Shown: positions 7,425 through 29,047 of the stretch, one piece after another | Numbering within the stretch: the stretch's first letter is position 1 | Layout: the number at the start of each line of letters is the position of its first letter | The notes under the pieces: model-generated | What the model was told of the DNA's origin: nothing | Seen by the model: only the letters and a program-made list of their open reading frames with translations | Database searches by the model: none | Source: Holophagaceae bacterium | GTDB taxonomy: Bacteria; Acidobacteriota; Holophagae; Holophagales; Holophagaceae | Length of the DNA stretch: 48,118 nucleotides | Reading direction: 5' to 3' | Assembly (NCBI GenBank): GCA_017859995.1 | Contig: JAFJUR010000002.1 | Span: 1-48,118 of the forward strand | Program-made: the position numbers and the translations under genes

Positions 7425-8954
7425 TCAGCACCGCACCTCGGCGTTCTTCCGGGCGTAGTAGTACCAGTTCAGAACGAGGCACACCACGTAGAACGCGGCG
7501 AACCCGTAGAGGGCGACCTCCACCTTGCCGGCGTCGACCTGGATCTTGAAGATGGCCGGAATGATGAAGGCGCCGTAGGCCGCGGCGGCGGAGGTCCAGC
7601 CCAGCACGGGGCCCGCGAGCTTCGGCTCGAAGATGAAAGGCACCATCTGGAAGGTGGACCCGTTGCCCAGGCCCGAGGCCACGAAGAGCAGGAGGAACAG
7701 CCCCAGGAACGGCAGGAAGTGGACTGCCGGATCCGGCGCCGCCTGGGCCAGCTTGACGAAGTGGGCCACCCCGAGGGCGCCGAGGATCATCAGGACCGTG
7801 GACCACTGGGTGACGCGGGAGCCGCGGAACTTGTCGGAGAGCAGCCCGCCGATGGGCCGCACGATGGAGCCGACCAGGGGTCCCAGGAAGGCGTAGGCCA
7901 GGGGGTTCGGGCTCTGGGGGTTCAGCACGCCCACGGGATAGCGGCCGAACACCACCTTGATGAGCAGGGGCAGGGCGGAGCTGAAACCGATGAAGCTGCC
8001 GAACGTCATGAGGTAGAGCACCGTCATGATCCAGGTGTGCTTCTTCGGGAAGATGGCGAACTGCGCCGTCAGGCCCGTCTTCACTTTCCCCGGCAGGAGC
8101 TTCATCAGGCCCAGGCAGACCAGGATGGTGAGCACCAGCACGCCCATCTGCGCCAGAAGGCCCAGCTTGAACCGCAGCAGCAAGATGACGCCCAGGGCGG
8201 TGGCCAGGAACCCGATGGCGTGAAGGCCGAGGATCTTCAGGAGGGCGAGGCCGGTGGGCTCGCAGTCCTGGCCCTCCCGGTTGTCCATGAGGAACCAGGC
8301 CAGGCCGGCGAGGATGACCAGGAAGGGCACCCAGACCAGGGCCCCGTTCTGCACCCAGAGCTGGCGCCCCGCGGCGCTCAGGTGGGGCGCGCCGGCCAGG
8401 GCGCCGAAGAGGGAGGTGCCCATGACGGTGGGCACGAGGATCTGCATGATGCTCACGCCGAGGTTGCCGATGCCCGCGTTGAGGCCCAGGGCGAGGCCCG
8501 CCAGGCGCTTGGGGAAGAAGCCGTTGATGTTGGCCATGGAGGAGGCGAAGTTGCCCCCGCCGATGCCGCTGAGGGCCGCCAGCACGGCGAAGGTGCCGAA
8601 GGAGGTGCCCTTGTCCTGCAGCGCGAGGCCGGCCCCGAGCGCGGGGGCGACGAGCAGGGCCGTGGTGAGGGCGATGGTGTTGCGACCGCCGGCCAGCCCC
8701 ACGAGGAAGGCGCTGGGGATGCGCAGGGTCGCGCCGCTGAGGCCCGCGATGCTGATCAGGGTGAAGAGCTGCGCGGCGGTGAAGGGAAAGCCCGCCTCCT
8801 TCATCCGCACGGTGAGCACGCTCCAGAACATCCAGATGCAGAAGGCCGACAGCAGCGCCGGCACCGACACGGCCAGGTTCCGCCAGGCCGTGAGGCTCCC
8901 GCCGGCCGCCCAGGCCTGCGGGTCTTCAGGATTCCAATCGGTGAGTTTGGCCAT
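7425..8954 (-). CDS. NarK-type nitrate/nitrite MFS transporter
   Basis: MFS with GIGGGNFASSMANINGFFPKRLAGLALGLNAGIGNLGVSIMQ nitrate-signature-like segment and TFGSFIGFSSALPLLIK. Confidence 0.92.
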   Translation of the reverse strand: MAKLTDWNPEDPQAWAAGGSLTAWRNLAVSVPALLSAFCIWMFWSVLTVRMKEAGFPFTAAQLFTLISIAGLSGATLRIPSAFLVGLAGGRNTIALTTALLVAPALGAGLALQDKGTSFGTFAVLAALSGIGGGNFASSMANINGFFPKRLAGLALGLNAGIGNLGVSIMQILVPTVMGTSLFGALAGAPHLSAAGRQLWVQNGALVWVPFLVILAGLAWFLMDNREGQDCEPTGLALLKILGLHAIGFLATALGVILLLRFKLGLLAQMGVLVLTILVCLGLMKLLPGKVKTGLTAQFAIFPKKHTWIMTVLYLMTFGSFIGFSSALPLLIKVVFGRYPVGVLNPQSPNPLAYAFLGPLVGSIVRPIGGLLSDKFRGSRVTQWSTVLMILGALGVAHFVKLAQAAPDPAVHFLPFLGLFLLLFVASGLGNGSTFQMVPFIFEPKLAGPVLGWTSAAAAYGAFIIPAIFKIQVDAGKVEVALYGFAAFYVVCLVLNWYYYARKNAEVRC

Positions 8955-8978
8955 GGCATGCTCCAGGTGGGTATCGAA

Positions 8979-10499
8979 TCAGGCGGGTTCGGTGAGGCCC
9001 ACGGGCGGCAGGCTGGGCTGCTCGAAGCGGGTGAAGAGGGTCTGGTCCTGCTCGCGGGTGATCCGGCGGACCACGGTGTGCAGCCAGACCAGGCAGACGC
9101 CGGAGAGCAGGGCCAGGAAGACCCACATGGTGGTCCAGAGGCCCGTGGACTTGAGCATGTAGCCGAAGAGGATGGGCCCGGCGAAGCCGCCCAGGCCGCC
9201 GATGACGCCCACGATGCCGCCCACCACGCCCACCTGCTCAGGGAAGTAGTCCGGGATGTAGCGGTACACCGCGGCCTTGCCGATGCCCCACACGATGCCC
9301 AGCAAGAAGACCAGGAAGGTGAAGATCCAGACGTTGGCCTGGAAGAAGACATGGGTGACGCCCGTGGCCAGGAGCTGCTTCTTCTTCACGGTGTCTCCCA
9401 CCTTCACCGCCGGCACCTGCCAGAAGCGGCTCTGGGGCAGCACCATGACGCGCTCGTTCTCGAACTCCGCCTCAGGGGCCTTCTCCCGCAGGGCGTAGGC
9501 CGTGCCGTTGACCACCACCCGACCCGGCCCCACCTCCTGCACCCGGCCACCCGCCTGCGCCAGCACGGCGGGCCCGGGGCTTTCGATGGTCATGCGCGGC
9601 ACCATGAGGGCCACGCAGGCCACCAGGCTGAGGCCGAAGGTCCAATACATGACGGTGCGGGCACCGAAACGGTCGGACATCCACCCGCCCGCGGCGCGGA
9701 TGAGCCCCGAAGGCAGGCTGAACAGGGCCGCCAGGAGACCAGCCATCGCGAGGCTCATGCCGTAGACGCCGACGTAGTAGGGGATGAGCCACTGGGCCAG
9801 GGCGACGAAGCACCCGAACACCAGGAAGTAGTAGAGGCCAAAGCGCCACACGCGCACATGGCGCAGCGGGCTCAGCAGCTCGCCGAGGCGCTTGCCCTTG
9901 GCGCTGGCCACCCGCCGCTCGTGGGTCAGCAGGTAGAAGGCGAGGGCCATCCCGACCAGCAGCACCGCGTAGAGCCGGGGCAGCATCCGCCAGCCCTCCA
10001 GGTTCGCGCCACCCGCGCTGAAGTGCTTGAGGAGCAGGGGGGCGCCCATGCTGGTGAGGGCGGACCCGGCATTGCCCGCGCCGAAGATGCCGAGGGCCGT
10101 GCCCTGGCGCTCCTTGCTGAACCACACGCTGGAATAGGCGATGCCCACGGCGAAGGCCGCGCCGGACAGGCCGAAGCCCAGGGAACCCAGCAGGAAGCCC
10201 TGGTAGGTGGTGACGGAACCCAGCAGCCAGGTGGGGATGGCGCTGAGCAGGAGCAGCAGGCTGTAGACCGTCCGCCCGCCGAAGCGGTCCGTCAGGAGGC
10301 CCACGGGCAGGCGCATGAGAGAGCCCGTGAGCACGGGGATGCCGATGAGCCAGCCCACCTGGCCCGTGTCCCAATGGAACACGCCGTTCTCCACCAGGAA
10401 GGTGACCAGCACGCCGTTCAGCGTCCACACCGCGAAGCAGAGGGTGAAGGCCAGTGTGCTCATGGCCAGGGCCGTGCGGGCTTGGGCCTGTTCAGACAT
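8979..10499 (-). CDS. NarK-type nitrate/nitrite MFS transporter (second copy) with central soluble insertion
   Basis: MSEQAQARTALAMSTLAFTLCFAVWTLNGVLVTFLVENGVF; GIFGAGNAGSALTSMGAPLL; GGIVGVIGGLGGFAGPILFGYM. Start taken at internal ATG 10499. Confidence 0.9.
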   Translation of the reverse strand: MSEQAQARTALAMSTLAFTLCFAVWTLNGVLVTFLVENGVFHWDTGQVGWLIGIPVLTGSLMRLPVGLLTDRFGGRTVYSLLLLLSAIPTWLLGSVTTYQGFLLGSLGFGLSGAAFAVGIAYSSVWFSKERQGTALGIFGAGNAGSALTSMGAPLLLKHFSAGGANLEGWRMLPRLYAVLLVGMALAFYLLTHERRVASAKGKRLGELLSPLRHVRVWRFGLYYFLVFGCFVALAQWLIPYYVGVYGMSLAMAGLLAALFSLPSGLIRAAGGWMSDRFGARTVMYWTFGLSLVACVALMVPRMTIESPGPAVLAQAGGRVQEVGPGRVVVNGTAYALREKAPEAEFENERVMVLPQSRFWQVPAVKVGDTVKKKQLLATGVTHVFFQANVWIFTFLVFLLGIVWGIGKAAVYRYIPDYFPEQVGVVGGIVGVIGGLGGFAGPILFGYMLKSTGLWTTMWVFLALLSGVCLVWLHTVVRRITREQDQTLFTRFEQPSLPPVGLTEPA

Positions 10500-10573
10500 G
10501 GAGGCTCCCGGAGGTGGGGAAGGAGGAATGGGCCGGCGGGGGGGATAAAAAAGAAATAGCAGTCTTAAATAGG

Positions 10574-10601
10574 GCCACGCCCGCCCTGGGACGGGCGTGG
10601 C
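10574..10601 (-). terminator. Intra-operon hairpin upstream of the second narK-type gene
   Basis: gccacgcccg-ccctggga-cgggcgtggc 10-bp perfect stem; minus-strand continuation is AT-rich (ccctatttaagactgctatttctttttta). Confidence 0.5.
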
Positions 10602-10609
10602 GCGAGGCA

Positions 10610-10822
10610 TCAGTCCTTCCGGCGGTGTTGCACGGTGCTGCGGAAGGCGAGGAACAGCGCGATCCCCGTGAGGGCCAGGGACACCCCGAAGGCGCCCGGC
10701 AGGACGCCGCGCTGGCCGTCGAGGACCGCGCCCAGCACGGTCTCGAAGAGGTAGAGCTGGATTACCAGCAGCACGAGGATGACGCCCAGCGCGGCCGGGG
10801 AGATGCGGACCGAAGCGCTCAC
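10610..10822 (-). CDS. Small (70 aa) two-TM membrane protein of the nitrate-reductase-like operon
   Basis: MSASVRISPAALGVILVLLVIQLYLFETVLGAVLDGQRGVLPGAFGVSLALTGIALFLAFRSTVQHRRKD; overlaps the preceding Rieske gene by 4 nt. Confidence 0.75.
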   Translation of the reverse strand: MSASVRISPAALGVILVLLVIQLYLFETVLGAVLDGQRGVLPGAFGVSLALTGIALFLAFRSTVQHRRKD

Positions 10823-11394
10823 GCCTTCACCTCCGCCGGGTCTTGACCCGCTTGGTCCCTGGGACAGGCCGCCCGCTGTCCTGGGGGCTCCAGCGTGGGC
10901 TTGGGCAGCTCACCCACGGCCCAGAGGCTGCCGTCGGAGCGCTCCTCCAGGGCGATGGCGGCCAAGGGCCGGCTGGGCGGGCCCTGCACGGGAAATCCCC
11001 GGTCGGTCTCGAAGAAGCCCAGGTGGCACGGGCATTCCAGACGATCGGCCTTGAAGCGGACGGCACAGCCCAGGTGAGTGCAGATCTGCCGATAGGCCTT
11101 CAGCTCGCCCTTGCCGGTGCGGAGCAGGATGCAGGCGTCGTGGGCATCCCGGAACTTGAAGAGGCGGCTTTCGCCGGGCTTCAGGTCCGCGGCCATGCCT
11201 ACAGCCACGGGGTGCTCCACCGGGCCGGGCTCCGGATCGGAGGCCCCTTCGAGGGGCGCCTTCCGCAGCCAGAGGAAGCCGATGCCCGTGGTGAAGCCCG
11301 CGCTCACCAGGGCGAGGAACCGGGCGAACTCCCGACGGGAGAAGTGGCCCTCTTCGGCGAGCTCGAGGGGAAAGGCGCGGCGCCACCAGGTCAT
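10819..11394 (-). CDS. Rieske [2Fe-2S] protein with N-terminal membrane anchor / Tat-like signal
   Basis: CTHLGCAV...CPCHLGFF Rieske ligand motifs; N-terminus FSRREFARFLALVSAGFTTGIGFLWL. Confidence 0.9.
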   Translation of the reverse strand: MTWWRRAFPLELAEEGHFSRREFARFLALVSAGFTTGIGFLWLRKAPLEGASDPEPGPVEHPVAVGMAADLKPGESRLFKFRDAHDACILLRTGKGELKAYRQICTHLGCAVRFKADRLECPCHLGFFETDRGFPVQGPPSRPLAAIALEERSDGSLWAVGELPKPTLEPPGQRAACPRDQAGQDPAEVKA

Positions 11395-11993
11395 CAGAGG
11401 CCTCCGGACGGGAACATCGAGTCGTCAATGAGCAGGGCCGCGTCCAGATGCAGAGGCGTTTCCGGATCGGGCACCATGATGGCGTTCTTGGTCTTGACCC
11501 GCACGGCGCCGATGAGGAAGTCGCGCAGGGGCTTGTTCTTGCGCATGCCGGCCACTTCGTCTTTCCGCACGAAGAGCAGGGCCTGGCTGGGGCAGACGGT
11601 GGCGCACATGGGCTTGTGGCCCACCGAGGTGCGGTCGTAGCAGAGGTCGCACTTGAGCATCTGCTCCAGGCCCGAGAACACGATGGGCACGCCGAAGGGG
11701 CAGCTCAGCTCGCAGTTCTGGCAGCCGATGCAGCGGGGCTTCTGGGCTGCGTGAACCACGCCGTCCTCGCTGCGCTTGATGGCGTCGGAGGGGCACACCT
11801 GGGCGCAGATGGGATCCTCGCAGTGCATGCACACGGTGGGCACGGTCTGGGGGCTGTTGTAGCGGTCGATCTCGTCGAGATGGATCATGGACCGGCCCCG
11901 GTGCGTGCCGCACTCCGCGCAGGCGCCGACGCAGGAACGGCAGCCGATGCAGCGCTGGGGATCGATAAAAAATCCGTAGTCCTGGGGCACCAT
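11394..11993 (-). CDS. 4Fe-4S dicluster electron-transfer subunit (DmsB/NrfC-like, four cluster motifs)
   Basis: CIGCRSCVGAC, CMHCEDPICAQVCP, CIGCQNCELSCP, CDLCYDRTSVGHKPMCATVCP; start codon overlaps the upstream stop (TGATG). Confidence 0.93.
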   Translation of the reverse strand: MVPQDYGFFIDPQRCIGCRSCVGACAECGTHRGRSMIHLDEIDRYNSPQTVPTVCMHCEDPICAQVCPSDAIKRSEDGVVHAAQKPRCIGCQNCELSCPFGVPIVFSGLEQMLKCDLCYDRTSVGHKPMCATVCPSQALLFVRKDEVAGMRKNKPLRDFLIGAVRVKTKNAIMVPDPETPLHLDAALLIDDSMFPSGGL

Positions 11994-14254
11994 CAGAACA
12001 CCTGCTCGGGCATGTCGGTCTGGTTGCTGCGGGCCTCGAAGGCCATGCGCTGCAACTCGGCCAGCTCGGGTGAAAACTGATCCTTGGTGGTCTTCCGCAG
12101 CCGCACCGCGCTCACCTTGAACTCGGGGATCTTGGAGACAGGATCCAGGTGCCGGCCCGTCAACCGGTTGGCCGACAGGGCGCCGGCCCAGTGGTAGGGA
12201 ATGAACACGGTGTCCGGGCGGATGCTCTTCACCACCCGGGCCGGCAGCACCATGGCGCCGCGCCGCGAGGTGATCTCCACCGCGTCGCCCTCCTGCAGGC
12301 CATACCGCTCCGCCAGGCGGGGGTGGATCTCCAGGTAGGGGTGGGGGCACTGCTCCACCAGGAAGCCGATGCGGCGGGTCTGGGTGCCGCTCAGGTAGTG
12401 GAAGACCACGCGGCCCGTGGTGAGCCAGATGGGGAACTCGTCATCCACCACCTCTGCCGGCGGACGGTACGGGGTGGGATTGAACCTCGCCTTGCCGTCG
12501 GGGTGGAAGAACCTCCCGCCCTCGAAGAGCCGCGGCGTGCCGGGATGGTCGTCCGTGGGGCAGGGCCAGAAGACGCCCATCTGCTGCTCGATCTTCGCGT
12601 AGCTGATGCCGGCGTAGTCCGCGGTGCCGCCCTTGGAGGCCACCCGCAGCTCGTTGAAGATGTCCTCGGGCTTCTGGAAGTGGTCGAAGTACTTGCCCCG
12701 GCCCAGGCGGTGGGCGAGCTCCACCATGATCTGCCAGTCCGGCCGGGCGTCCCCGGGGCAGTCCACGGCCTTGTTGATCTTGATGACGCGCCCCTCGGCG
12801 CTGGTGGAGGTGCCCTCGTCCTCCTCGTGCAGGGCGGAGGGCAGCACGATGTCGGCGTGCTGGGCGCTCTCGCTGAGGAAGAAGTCCAGGCAGACGAAGA
12901 ACTCGAGCTTGCTGAGGGCTTCCCGGGTGAACTGCGTGTCAGGCAGCGACACCAGGGGATTGAAGCAGAGCAGGAGGAGTCCCTTGATCTCGCCGGCGTG
13001 GATGGCGTTCATGATTTCCTGGGCGCTCTGGCCCACGCCCGGCAGCTCCTCGTCGGTGCAGCCCCAGACGCTGCAGATGTACTTCCGGTGCTCGGGGTTG
13101 CTGATGTCGCGGTTGCCCGGCAGCTGGTCGCACTTATGCCCGTGCTCCCGGCCGCCCTGGCCGTTGCCCTGGCCCGTGATGGTGGCGTATCCGCAGCCGG
13201 GGCGCCCGATGCGGCCCGTGGCGAGCACCATGTTGATGCAGCCGAGGACGTTGTCGACGCCCTTGGTCTGGTGCTCGATGCCCCGCGCGTGCAGGAGGAA
13301 GCTGGTCCGGGCCTCGCCCCACATGCGGGCAGCCTTCTCGATGGCGTCCACCGGCAGCCCCGTGATGCGGCTGGTCCATTCGGGCGTGCAGTCCTTCACC
13401 GCCTCCAGGGTCTGCTCGAAGCCGCTGGTGTGCTCGTTGACGAAGTCCCAGTCGATGAGGTTCCACCGGTGGAGGAGGTGCAGGATCCCGTTGGTGAGGG
13501 CCGAATCGGTGCCGGGCTTCAGGGGCAGCACCAGGTCGGCGGTGCGGGCCAGGGGCGTGATGCGGGGATCCACCACGATGAGCAGCGCGCCGCGATCCCG
13601 GGCCCGCCAGATGTAGTCGGTGGTGATGGGCGAGCATTCCGCCACGTTGGACCCGGCCACCCAGATGACGTCGGCCAGCTCGATGTCCGCCCAGGAGTTG
13701 GCGGCCCGGTCGACGCCGAAGGCCTTCTTGTTGCCCGCCCCCGCGCTCACCATGCAGAGGCGGCCGTTGTAGTCGAGGTTCTTCGTCTGCAGGCCCAGGC
13801 GCGCGAACTTGCCCGCGAGGTAGCTCTTCTCGTTGGTCAGCGAGACGCCGGACAGCACCGCGAAGGCATCCTTGCCATGGGCTGCCTGGATGCGCTGGAT
13901 CTCCGCGGCGGTGCGGTCCATGGCCTCGTTCCAGTCCATGGGCTCGAAGCCGTGTTCCGTGCGCTTCATGGCCCGGGTCAGGCGGTCCGGGTGGTTGCCC
14001 TGGAGGTAGCGCTTCACGCCCTTGGGGCAGAGCTTTCCCTGGTTGAAGGGGAAGGCCTCCCAGGGATCGAAGCCGATCACCTTGTTGTCCTTCACCTTCA
14101 GCTTGATGCCGCACTGCTGGCCGCAGAAGCAGCAGTGGGTCTCGACGATCTTGTCGGGCGTGGGATCGGACAGCCAGCCCCCCGGCGGGGCGAGGTTCAG
14201 ATGGGGGCCGAACTGGGCGCGGAGCTGGTCCTGGGAAAGAGGAAGAACGCTCAT
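11993..14254 (-). CDS. Molybdopterin (bis-MGD) oxidoreductase catalytic subunit, nitrate-reductase-like (Nas/NarB/NapA clade features)
   Basis: CCFCGQQC...GKLCPKG [4Fe-4S] motif, Cys in the Mo-ligand region ([19 protein letters not shown]), C-terminal molydopterin dinucleotide-binding domain; neighbours are NarK transporters and mobB. No N-terminal Tat signal seen. Confidence 0.9.
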
Positions 14255-14261
14255 GGATACC

Positions 14262-15374
14262 TCAGGACTTTAGGCTGGTGGTGTCGGGGATGGGTTCGGC
14301 GTGCACGGGGATCGTGGCGAAGGGATCGAAGGCCCCGTGCAGGCGGGCGCCCTGGGCTTTCGCCACCAGGCGGCGCTTGCAGCGCGGGCAGAGGTCGAGG
14401 TGATGGATCCCCTCGCCATGCCTCGCGCCGTCCAGGTCGAGTTCCTTCCACAGCGCGATCAGGTCGCGGCGCTGGTTCATGCGGATGAAGCGGTCGCCGC
14501 AGCCCTTGCAGGAGAACCGACCTTCGGACTCACCGTCGGCCTTGTAGAGGGAGACGCCGACCTGGGCGGGCCGCTGGATGACGTGGAACAGCTTGCCGAA
14601 GGGCAGGCCCAGCAGCAGCAGGATCACGGTCAGCTCGTGCAGGAAGGCGAGCGTGGCGAAGTTGCGGCCCTGAAGCCACTTCTCCGAAGCGGTGAGCATG
14701 AGGCCGGTCATGCTCACGGCGATGAGCAGCACGAGGGGCAGCAGGTCGAGGTCGAAGCGCTGGGTGGCCGTGTCCCCTTCATCTTGCTTGCGGCGGATGA
14801 GGCTGAGCACGCAGCCGGCGATCACCATGACGGCGGCCAGGTCCAGCACATGGAAGCTCATGAACGCCGCGAAACTGTCCAGGGGGAAGCTGCCCGCGGG
14901 AAAGCCGAAGAGCCAAGCCTGGTAGCGCGTGGCGTCCAGCCCTTCGCTGGTGAACCGCACCCATCCGAACACCAGGGGGATGGTCACCGCGAAACCCAGC
15001 ATGCAGCCCCAGGCGAGGAGCGCGTGGGCCCCCCAGCGGCGCAGCGAGCGCTTTTCGATGAACCGCTGGAGGAACATCTGGTCGAGCGCCAGCACAGCCA
15101 TGTTCGGCAGGGCGCTGAAGACCTTGACGGAAAGGAGGGTGCGGACCGTGTGCCGGAAGTACATCCGGGTGGCGGGCCGCTCGATCCAGGTGAAATACCG
15201 ATAGGCGACCCCGAAACCCGCGAAGAGGGTCGCCAGGAGGTAGCCGAGCAGGGCAGGATCGAGCCAGCGCCCGCCCCGGCTGCCCAGGGCCACGACTCCG
15301 CAGAGGGCCAGGGTCGCGAGGGCGGCCCGGATCAGGGGGCGGGGTTCGAGGTCGAGACGGCCTGACAGGGACAT
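14262..15374 (-). CDS. NarI-like multi-TM membrane protein with C-terminal Cys-rich ribbon
   Basis: Several TM segments; [26 protein letters not shown] (two His 18 residues apart); C-terminal [15 protein letters not shown]...[11 protein letters not shown]. Start at internal ATG 15374. Confidence 0.78.
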
Positions 15375-15429
15375 GGGGTGCTCCAGGGGGCCCAGCGTTG
15401 ACCGGAACGGGACCCATAAGGTGGCTTTA

Positions 15430-15888
15430 TCAATGGGGATGAGCAAGGCCTTTGAGACGCAATCTTTGTTCGGATTGCCTCATGTGGCGCAGGTCCATCA
15501 GTTGCAGATCACGAATCGTGGCTTCCGTCATGGAGGAGGCCACCTGGGATTTCACGGCGGTCCAGGCCTCGTGGAGCGGGCAGGGATGCTCGCTGCTGCA
15601 GACCGGGAACCCCATGACGCAGCCATCCAGGGATTTCGGACCTTCGATGGCCACAACCACCTCGCCTACGGTGATGCGGTGCGCCGGGCGGCTCAGGCGG
15701 AACCCGCCCTTGGGACCCCGCACCGATTCGAGGAGGGACGCCTGGGCCAAGGATTGCAGGATCTTGGCGAGGTAGGGTGCGGGAAGGTCCAGCTGGGCCG
15801 CCAGATCTTTGGACAGGCAATGGCTTCCGTCCTCGGGCAGGGCGGCTAGGGCACGGAGGGCATAGCCCGTGGCGGTGTGGAACAACAT
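15430..15888 (-). CDS. Rrf2-family transcriptional regulator with three-Cys motif
   Basis: MLFHTATGYALRALAALPEDG...LAKILQSLAQASLLESVRGPKGGFRLSRPAHRITVGEVVVAIEG and CVMGFPVCSSEHPCPLHEAW. Confidence 0.92.
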   Translation of the reverse strand: MLFHTATGYALRALAALPEDGSHCLSKDLAAQLDLPAPYLAKILQSLAQASLLESVRGPKGGFRLSRPAHRITVGEVVVAIEGPKSLDGCVMGFPVCSSEHPCPLHEAWTAVKSQVASSMTEATIRDLQLMDLRHMRQSEQRLRLKGLAHPH

Positions 15889-15984
15889 TCAGGAGTCCTT
15901 GCTCTGAATTATAGGTACACCAGGACCAGCGCAATCGTCCACTGGGCTGTGACCGGCGTCATAGCGTTTCTTGGAACAATGCGT

Positions 15985-16488
15985 TCAGGGCCGCCCCAGG
16001 CCCATGCGAGCAAGGATGAATCCGGCGATGGCGGCGGGATCATTCAGGTCCAGCCGCGGGATCGCGAGGCCGGGCAGGGGGCGATCGCTCGCCACGGCCA
16101 CGATCTCCGGGTCGTCATGGCAGAGCAGGGGCTTGCCCTCGGACTCGCGGTGGATCTCCAGCTTGGGATGGGAATGGGTCTTGAATCCCTCGATGAGCAG
16201 CAGGTCCACGGGGGTCATGCGCTCGATGAGGGATTCAATGCTGGGCTCGGCCTCCTCCCGGGATTCGTGCATGAGCACCCAGCGTGAGGAGGTCACGACC
16301 AGCACCTCCGAGGCACCCGCCTCGCGATGCCTGAAGGAATCCTTGCCGGGGGTATCCAGGTCGAACCGGTGGTGCGCGTGCTTCATGGTGGACACCTGAA
16401 CCCCCGCAGCCTTCAGGAGCGGCAGCACCGCCACCAGCAGGCTCGTCTTTCCGCTGCCGCTCCAGCCCACGATCCCCATGACCTTCAT
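15985..16488 (-). CDS. mobB: Molybdopterin-guanine dinucleotide biosynthesis protein B
   Basis: MGIVGWSGSGKTSLLVAVLPLLKAAGVQVSTMKHAHHRFDLDTPGKDSFRHREAGA; LLLIEGFK. Confidence 0.93.
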   Translation of the reverse strand: MKVMGIVGWSGSGKTSLLVAVLPLLKAAGVQVSTMKHAHHRFDLDTPGKDSFRHREAGASEVLVVTSSRWVLMHESREEAEPSIESLIERMTPVDLLLIEGFKTHSHPKLEIHRESEGKPLLCHDDPEIVAVASDRPLPGLAIPRLDLNDPAAIAGFILARMGLGRP

Positions 16489-28311: not shown

Positions 28312-29047
28312 GGGTGCGCTCCCAGAGGAACTCGGCGATGTGCTGGACGCGCAAGGGACTCTGCTTCGCCTCCAGGGTGCCGTTCACGTTGAGGAGGCAG
28401 CCGCCGTCCGTGGAGAGGACCACGGAGGCGCCGGTGGCCTCGGCATCCGCGGCCTTGTCGCAGGACATGGCCCCGGAGATCTCCGGCTGGCGCACGGAGA
28501 AGGTGCCGCCGAAGCCGCAGCATTCATGCTCGCGGGCGAGGGGCGCCAGCTCCACGTTGGCGAGCTGGCCGATGAGGGCCTGGGGTTCGCCCTTCAGGCC
28601 AAGATCCCGCACCGCATGGCAGGAGCTGTGCCAGGTGACCTTCACCGGCGCGCCGAGATCCTTCAGCTTCACGTCGAGGACATCCACCAGGAACTGGGTC
28701 AGCTCGTAGACGCGGGCGCTGAAGGCCTTCACCTTGGCTTCATCGGGCTGGCCGTGGAACAGTTCCGGATAGTGGACCTTCATCATGCCGGCGCAGCTGC
28801 CGGAGGGCAGGATGACCGGCAGGTCCTGGGGAAAGAGAGCCACCTGATTACGGGCCACATCGCGGGCCTCCTCCCAGTAGCCGCAGTTGAAGGCGGGTTG
28901 GCCGCAGCAGGTCTGGCCTTCGGGAAAGACCACGTCCACGCCGGCCTGACGCAGCAGCTGGATGCCGGCCATGCCGGCGTCGGGAAAGAAGAGGTCCACC
29001 AGGCAGGTGCCGTAGAAGTAGACCTTCTTGGGCTTGGGTTCACTCAC
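28301..29047 (-). CDS. LutA-like (Fe-S)-binding lactate-utilization protein
   Basis: VYFYGTCLVDLFFPDAGMAGIQLLRQAGVDVVFPEGQTCCGQPAFNCGY; HECCGFGGTFSVRQPEIS (CCG motifs); GTG start overlapping the upstream stop. Confidence 0.92.
   Translation of the reverse strand: MSEPKPKKVYFYGTCLVDLFFPDAGMAGIQLLRQAGVDVVFPEGQTCCGQPAFNCGYWEEARDVARNQVALFPQDLPVILPSGSCAGMMKVHYPELFHGQPDEAKVKAFSARVYELTQFLVDVLDVKLKDLGAPVKVTWHSSCHAVRDLGLKGEPQALIGQLANVELAPLAREHECCGFGGTFSVRQPEISGAMSCDKAADAEATGASVVLSTDGGCLLNVNGTLEAKQSPLRVQHIAEFLWERTHAR

Follow-up and report, generated by a model that had tools for sequence, protein, structure and literature searches.

A gene module spread over at least seven phyla most likely encodes a respiratory nitrate reductase of new composition

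Background

In Bacillota, Actinomycetota and Deinococcus, the catalytic subunits NasC and NarB are partnered by NirB and NAD(P)H or by flavoproteins, and they occur without a NarI-like membrane subunit, a DmsB-like iron-sulfur (FeS) subunit, a Rieske protein carrying a twin-arginine translocation (Tat) signal or the small membrane protein DUF6755. NarGHI includes a cytoplasmic molybdenum (Mo) subunit, an FeS subunit with four clusters and a cytochrome b of the NarI superfamily, and is accompanied by NarK. In NarI, His56 and His205 bind the proximal haem, on the cytoplasmic side, and His66 and His187 bind the distal haem. In this work we analyzed a gene module located on the minus strand (positions 7425 to 16488) of a 48,118-nucleotide stretch of DNA from a Holophagaceae bacterium, hereafter the window, in which a NasC/NarB-like Mo subunit is encoded together with NarI-like, DmsB-like, Rieske and DUF6755 proteins.

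An earlier note on this DNA held that a dedicated Rieske protein is not normally part of Nar, Nap or Nas systems. NasC/NarB systems lack a Rieske protein with a Tat signal, but Rieske proteins as such are known from nitrate reduction. NasG and NirD are Rieske proteins of Nas systems (PMC3475470), and Rieske and cytochrome b genes are cited as adjoining haloarchaeal Nar (PMC4683180, PMC8301774). There, as in the module, a Rieske protein and a b-type cytochrome are tied to nitrate reduction; unlike in the module, NarG is a type II enzyme of the dimethyl sulfoxide reductase family located outside the membrane, and NarC is a bc1-type, not a NarI-like, cytochrome b. The Nap cluster of Caldithrix shares with the module a Rieske gene next to a nitrate reductase and the ammonifying reduction of nitrite; in contrast, its Rieske and cytochrome b genes lie beside a periplasmic enzyme of the NapA type with NapGHM, and the cytochrome b is bc-like (PMC5317091).

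Our literature search found no description of the five-gene module, and no mention of DUF6755 in the papers searched; the only close layout was that of NaoABC from Symbiobacteriaceae, named in 2024 as an Sb(III) oxidase from its heterologous expression in an R. palustris strain carrying narGHI (PMC11521347). Compared by its published description only, NaoABC has the same order of a Mo subunit, a DmsB-like FeS subunit and an AioB-like Rieske protein with an N-terminal transmembrane (TM) helix. It differs in that Sb(III) oxidation in the periplasm was assigned to it, and the main text mentions no NarI-like or DUF6755 subunit (PMC11521347).

Results and discussion

Composition and distribution of the module

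The five core genes, encoding the NarI-like, Mo, FeS, Rieske and DUF6755 proteins, probably specify a respiratory nitrate reductase that is bound to the membrane, faces the cytoplasm and depends on quinol, as judged from their sequences. The module is genuine, it is conserved, and its distribution is wide. When 85,462 species genomes were scanned with the Mo subunit, 468 relatives were obtained, the best 80 of which belong to Acidobacteriota, Omnitrophota, Desulfobacterota, Actinomycetota (Microthrixaceae and other Acidimicrobiia), Armatimonadota, Deinococcota and Binatota; the module is spread over at least seven phyla. Within the genus, roughly every second genome has an orthologue of the Mo subunit, with 83-94% identity; beyond it, orthologues of 55-66% identity occur in over 30 further genomes of Acidobacteriota, and four Deinococcus plasmids carry one of 64% identity. 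On the two plasmids that were read, the order of the genes is NarI-like, Mo, FeS, Rieske, DUF6755 and NarK. The NarI-like, Mo, FeS and Rieske genes stand together in nearly all of the approximately 90 loci long enough to show them; in some Armatimonadota, the FeS-Rieske-DUF6755 genes lie a few kb off or on the other strand. The earlier note had called the module unusual and had guessed that related clusters might exist in databases: the set of Mo, Rieske and small TM genes recurs across phyla and is not unique to this genome.

The source genome is fragmented (258 contigs, 88.7% complete), and the module lies on one contig. A local chance assembly of genes was discarded given the synteny across loci, and a misassembly given that the same order is found in many independent genomes, including the Deinococcus plasmids and the isolates Geothrix limicola, G. 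terrae, G. oryzisoli, G. paludis and Desertimonas flava. By the Mo subunit, the closest relatives of the source organism are Geothrix isolates and metagenome-assembled genomes; the host is a Geothrix-related bacterium of soil and sediment. As a side observation, one contig from the bin of a Methanoregulaceae archaeon (L085) carries a Mo gene of 70% identity with NrfHA, NarK and MoeA, and is probably a mis-binned armatimonadal contig.

The catalytic and iron-sulfur subunits

The catalytic subunit (11993..14254, minus strand; 753 residues) was assigned by profiles, tree and motifs to the enzymes with a Mo-bis(pyranopterin guanine dinucleotide) cofactor and an N-terminal [4Fe-4S] cluster. As the earlier note had observed, its Mo-ligand region holds a cysteine (Cys167) and the protein sequence has no Tat signal. 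A maximum-likelihood tree was built from 54 proteins, 33 of them from the module, with formate dehydrogenases (FDH) and NapA as outgroups; the branches among the outgroups are long, and the module clade is independent of them. All 33 module proteins, one of them labelled as Myxococcota, form a single clade (support 100/100), and this clade and its sister, which includes Paenibacillus NasC, actinobacterial NarB and Deinococcus NasA, form a second group with the same support, 100/100, with FDH and NapA placed outside. This agrees with the Nas/NarB-like character that had been proposed for the enzyme. Several members of the NasC/NarB group adjoin NirB genes. NasC and NarB share with the module the catalytic fold and the Mo-ligand and substrate-channel motifs, at 38-47% identity; the motif DYNGRxCMxSA and a second loop motif are common to the module and to NirB-linked NasC/NarB, and are not found in FDH.

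Other identities were considered for this subunit and set aside. For FDH, the model TIGR01591 gave 591 bits, which is below its cut-off; the FDH-specific histidine after the Mo ligand is Met168 in the module and the arginine of RGQNN is Thr360, and the tree separates the FDH proteins. The module also stayed under the cut-offs of the NapA (273.7 vs 930.6 bits, with no Tat signal on the Mo subunit), AioA (176.5 vs 359 bits) and AioB (40.6 vs 95.65 bits) models, and the Nap and arsenite oxidase identities were rejected on these scores. The NarG (62.6 vs 1084 bits) and NarH (37.6 vs 524 bits) models were missed by far. The module thus resembles NarGHI in having a cytoplasmic Mo subunit, a four-cluster FeS subunit, a NarI-superfamily cytochrome b and NarK, but differs from it in these scores, in a missing haem histidine of the NarI-like protein, in the absence of narJ from the cluster and in the additional Rieske and DUF6755 proteins.

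The FeS subunit (11394..11993, minus strand; 199 residues, DmsB model 96 bits) is of the DmsB/NrfC type. Its start was corrected with the help of homologues, given that the open reading frame (ORF) had been taken to begin at 12350. Seventeen cysteines are invariant in 71/71 homologues and therefore provide enough ligands for four [4Fe-4S] clusters, as the earlier note had it. No Tat signal was found on this subunit.

The NarI-like membrane subunit

The membrane subunit (14262..15374, minus strand) was assigned to the NarI superfamily, with six TM helices and a cytoplasmic C-terminal cysteine domain, from a structural model, fold matches, hhalign and an alignment of homologues. The model has a predicted local distance difference test value of 89.2 and a predicted template modelling score of 0.82; plasmid-derived alignment rows were left out of two structure predictions. 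Foldseek matched the model to EtfD (probability 0.99) and NarI (1siw_C, probability 0.95); these structural E-values are weak, for which reason it is the sequence profile that counts for kinship with NarI. Matches to G-protein-coupled receptors were set aside as generic helical ones, with low probability and high root-mean-square deviation. By profiles and fold, the module includes no bc-type cytochrome b subunit.

Three histidines, His117, His246 and His264, are invariant in alignments of 46-48 homologues. By hhalign, His246 and His264 pair with His187 and His205 of E. coli NarI, and by its motif His117 would correspond to His56. The position matching His66, ten residues past His117, is a nearly invariant alanine, so that only three of the four haem histidines of a NarI-type cytochrome b are kept and one of His56/His66 has no equivalent. 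Since the missing ligand is that of the distal haem, the inner haem seems to be retained and the outer one altered. A histidine of the next helix, present in 24/38 sequences, might stand in for it; hence the subunit could bind one haem or two. The positive-inside rule would place the haem pair His117/His264 on the cytoplasmic side.

The Rieske protein and DUF6755

The Rieske [2Fe-2S] protein (10819..11394, minus strand; 191 residues, PF00355 40.3 bits) has a twin-arginine signal anchor. Arg20-Arg21 and the cluster ligands are invariant in 40/40 aligned sequences; the arginines mostly stand within a motif of the type (S/T)RR(E/D)F, ahead of a hydrophobic stretch, and the cluster motif is of the disulfide type, C(T/P)HLxC...C(P/A)CH. 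By sequence, this is the layout of the Tat-dependent bc1 Rieske and AioB proteins. A stray Rieske protein of a bc complex was rejected, given the synteny of the loci and three genomes (G002, G032 and G019) in which the module Rieske was the sole Rieske protein detected. Given the invariant twin arginine, and Mo and FeS subunits without a signal, the Rieske head is predicted to be outside and the Mo and FeS subunits inside the membrane.

The invariant Tat motif could also be understood if the Mo and FeS subunits left the cytoplasm together with the Rieske protein and were held on the outer side, giving a periplasmic quinol:nitrate reductase; AioA and DmsB are known to be exported as such hitch-hikers. 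We regard it as unlikely, considering that NarK or SLAC1 nitrate transporters accompany the module and that the haem pair of the NarI-like subunit would face the cytoplasm. The same kind of export is part of another alternative. The model of the Rieske protein has its best fold match in AioB, followed by bc-type Rieske proteins, and its Tat signal is the only one in the module; in AioAB, the Tat signal is found on the Rieske subunit alone. The module could then be an oxidase of Sb(III) and As(III), with substrate electrons passing through the FeS subunit and the Rieske protein to the quinone pool, and the layout of naoABC, with which Sb(V) was formed in recombinant R. palustris, speaks for it (PMC11521347). 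We consider this improbable: the clade and the active site are of the nitrate reductase type, the AioA and AioB scores are low, NarK/SLAC1 and NrfHA are the neighbours, and no arsenic or antimony gene was seen in the neighbourhoods examined. In the published tree NaoA is nearest to NapA, and the tree legend has no Nas sequences (PMC11521347); a NasC relative would be expected to fall near NapA in such a tree.

DUF6755 is a small two-TM protein (10610..10822, minus strand; 70 residues, PF20540 28.6 bits against a gathering cut-off of 27), whose gene follows the Rieske gene in all examined loci but one, mostly with a 4-nt overlap. All ten small proteins tested matched DUF6755, three of them below the cut-off. 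Among 396 acidobacteriotal genomes, DUF6755 is present in 53 and the Mo subunit also in 52/53 of these; three genomes have the Mo subunit without DUF6755. The lone genome with DUF6755 and no full Mo gene (G404) has the other module genes. In its locus (L167, C10:1-11191), the Mo gene is reduced to the last ~113 residues and adjoins a NarK fragment, with the FeS, Rieske and DUF6755 genes intact; either a deletion or a misassembly would account for this.

Nitrate transport, NrfA and physiological setting

Two genes for nitrate/nitrite transporters of the major facilitator superfamily follow the core genes on the minus strand: a NarK-type gene at 8979..10610 (TIGR00886 179 bits, below cut-off), which may start instead at ATG 10499, and a NarK/NarU-type gene at 7425..8954 (NF011608 292 bits and TIGR00886 289 bits, both below cut-off). 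The former protein has an insert of ~88 residues (~338-425, SPGxGVxA...VGxxVxKKxLLAxGxTxxxFQA) that is conserved in module-adjacent NarKs of Acidobacteriota, Omnitrophota and Armatimonadota and by eye resembles a barrel-sandwich domain. NarK or SLAC1 genes accompany the module in other loci. A SLAC1-type anion channel (PF03595) is found in Actinomycetota, one Desulfobacterales and some other loci, after the module where NarK was not found (L124:13644-14714, L075:13617-14666, L077, L078, L092, L098, L108, L127, L130), which suggests that this channel is the path for nitrate and nitrite there.

NrfH-NrfA genes lie within the module cluster in Omnitrophota (L073), Acidobacteriota (L151/L152) and Armatimonadota (L115), and NrfA is present in the source genome and in the complete Geothrix genomes G002 and G032. 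No NarG, NapA or sirohaem nitrite reductase was found in these two Geothrix genomes, and NirB/NirA is likewise absent from the source genome. Among the 396 Acidobacteriota, 55 of which have the module, it is associated with NrfA (odds ratio 5.8, p 9e-9; outside the source family 4.5, p 1e-4) and shows no association with sirohaem nitrite reductase (NIR_SIR; odds ratio 0.73, p 0.31), these statistics ignoring shared ancestry. Nitrate respiration is supported by the NarK/SLAC1 genes, by NrfHA in several clusters and by the genomes that have the module and NrfA without NarG, NapA or sirohaem nitrite reductase. The nearest characterised relatives, the assimilatory NasC/NarB beside NirB, suggest another reading, in which the module would serve nitrate assimilation and its additional subunits would draw on the quinol pool and not on NADH or ferredoxin. 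We give it only a small chance, in view of the missing sirohaem enzyme in the three genomes, of the phylum-wide association with NrfA and not with NIR_SIR, and of the NrfHA genes inside the clusters.

Several Geothrix genomes carry a canonical narGHI ~14 kb from the module (L148, L149; G015:C2:228001-258000). That region also encodes a QrcA-like multihaem cytochrome, a DsrP/NrfD-like protein, a 645-residue NarK with an additional N-terminal region, and moeA.

Gene order and other features of the locus

Upstream of the core genes on the minus strand are mobB (15985..16488), for a Mo-cofactor guanylylation adaptor of 167 residues (TIGR00176 159 bits, cut-off 76.2; PF03205), and a gene for an Rrf2-family regulator of 152 residues (15430..15888; PF02082 103 bits, TIGR00738 105 bits) with three cysteines as in Fe-S regulators, GCVMGFPVCSSEHPC. 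ORF and profile searches recovered all nine genes that had been named before. The start and stop overlaps reported by the earlier note hold for Mo/FeS (TGATG), FeS/Rieske (TGATG), Rieske/DUF6755 (GTGA) and DUF6755/NarK2 (TGATG), but not for the NarI-like and Rrf2 genes: homologues place the NarI-like start at ATG 15374 and not at TTG 15446, and therefore these two genes do not overlap. The chain of 1- or 4-nt overlaps from Mo to NarK2 favours co-transcription, without proving it. Elsewhere in the window (28872-28962, minus strand), ARAGORN calls a tRNA-Gly(ccc) to which Rfam at its gathering threshold gives no support.

Proposed mechanism

We infer the substrate, the topology of the complex and the path of electrons as follows. 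Nitrate would be imported by NarK, or by SLAC1 in some lineages, and reduced to nitrite at the NasC/NarB-type Mo centre in the cytoplasm. The membrane part formed by the NarI-like, Rieske and DUF6755 proteins would oxidise quinol, and electrons would pass from the b-haem of the NarI-like subunit near the cytoplasmic face through four [4Fe-4S] clusters to the Mo centre. Nitrite would be exported, in many hosts to NrfA for ammonification. The Tat-exported Rieske protein and DUF6755 would be dedicated subunits, and the Rieske cluster would probably help to oxidise quinol on the outer side of the membrane, the side on which the NarI-like protein lacks one ligand of the distal haem. The cytoplasm-facing quinol:nitrate reductase with a hybrid electron-transfer chain of the earlier note is supported by the NasC/NarB clade and active site, the NarI-superfamily subunit, the lack of Tat signals on the Mo and FeS subunits, NarK/SLAC1 and the NrfA linkage; the simple linear chain in the cytoplasm that the note implies would leave the Rieske domain, predicted to be outside the membrane, unexplained.

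The role of the Rieske protein is the most tentative part of this proposal. Electrons from quinol may reach it first, in which case it would replace the distal haem; it may split electrons to a periplasmic acceptor; or it may be an entry point for electrons from a periplasmic donor. In an elaborate form, the Rieske protein and a single inner haem would share the two electrons of one quinol, passing one on to nitrate in the cytoplasm and the other to an acceptor in the periplasm, in a bc1-like bifurcation on a NarI scaffold; we hold such a redox-split enzyme to be possible but rather doubtful.

Several observations weigh against a quinol-dependent respiratory nitrate reductase. It is not obvious how electrons would get from a Rieske cluster in the periplasm to a Mo centre in the cytoplasm, and Sb(III) oxidation was reportedly increased by a gene trio arranged in the same way (PMC11521347). 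NrfA is missing in 23/55 module genomes, and NrfA and sirohaem nitrite reductase are both missing in 15/55. The catalytic subunit falls short of the NasC cut-off of NCBIfam NF047855 (825 vs 1100 bits); by its sequence it is a NasC relative rather than a NasC equivalog.

Conclusions

The module most likely encodes an enzyme of nitrate respiration whose composition is new, and DUF6755 gains a setting from it. If NaoABC belongs to the same family, either the enzyme is promiscuous or its assignment as an antimony oxidase requires a nitrate-reductase control; the assignment merits a check. A bioenergetic question is also raised, namely the job of a periplasmic Rieske centre in a cytoplasmic nitrate reductase. 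Eichorst et al. described nitrate-reducing acidobacteria with nasA-like genes and no dissimilatory nitrate reductase of the Nar or Nap type, and the module may bear on them (PMC5900883). If our reading is true, a nitrate-respiring enzyme of at least seven phyla is currently read as "assimilatory nasA/narB" or "molybdopterin oxidoreductase", and the extent of nitrate respiration and ammonification in soils, sediments, groundwater and anammox reactors would be underestimated.

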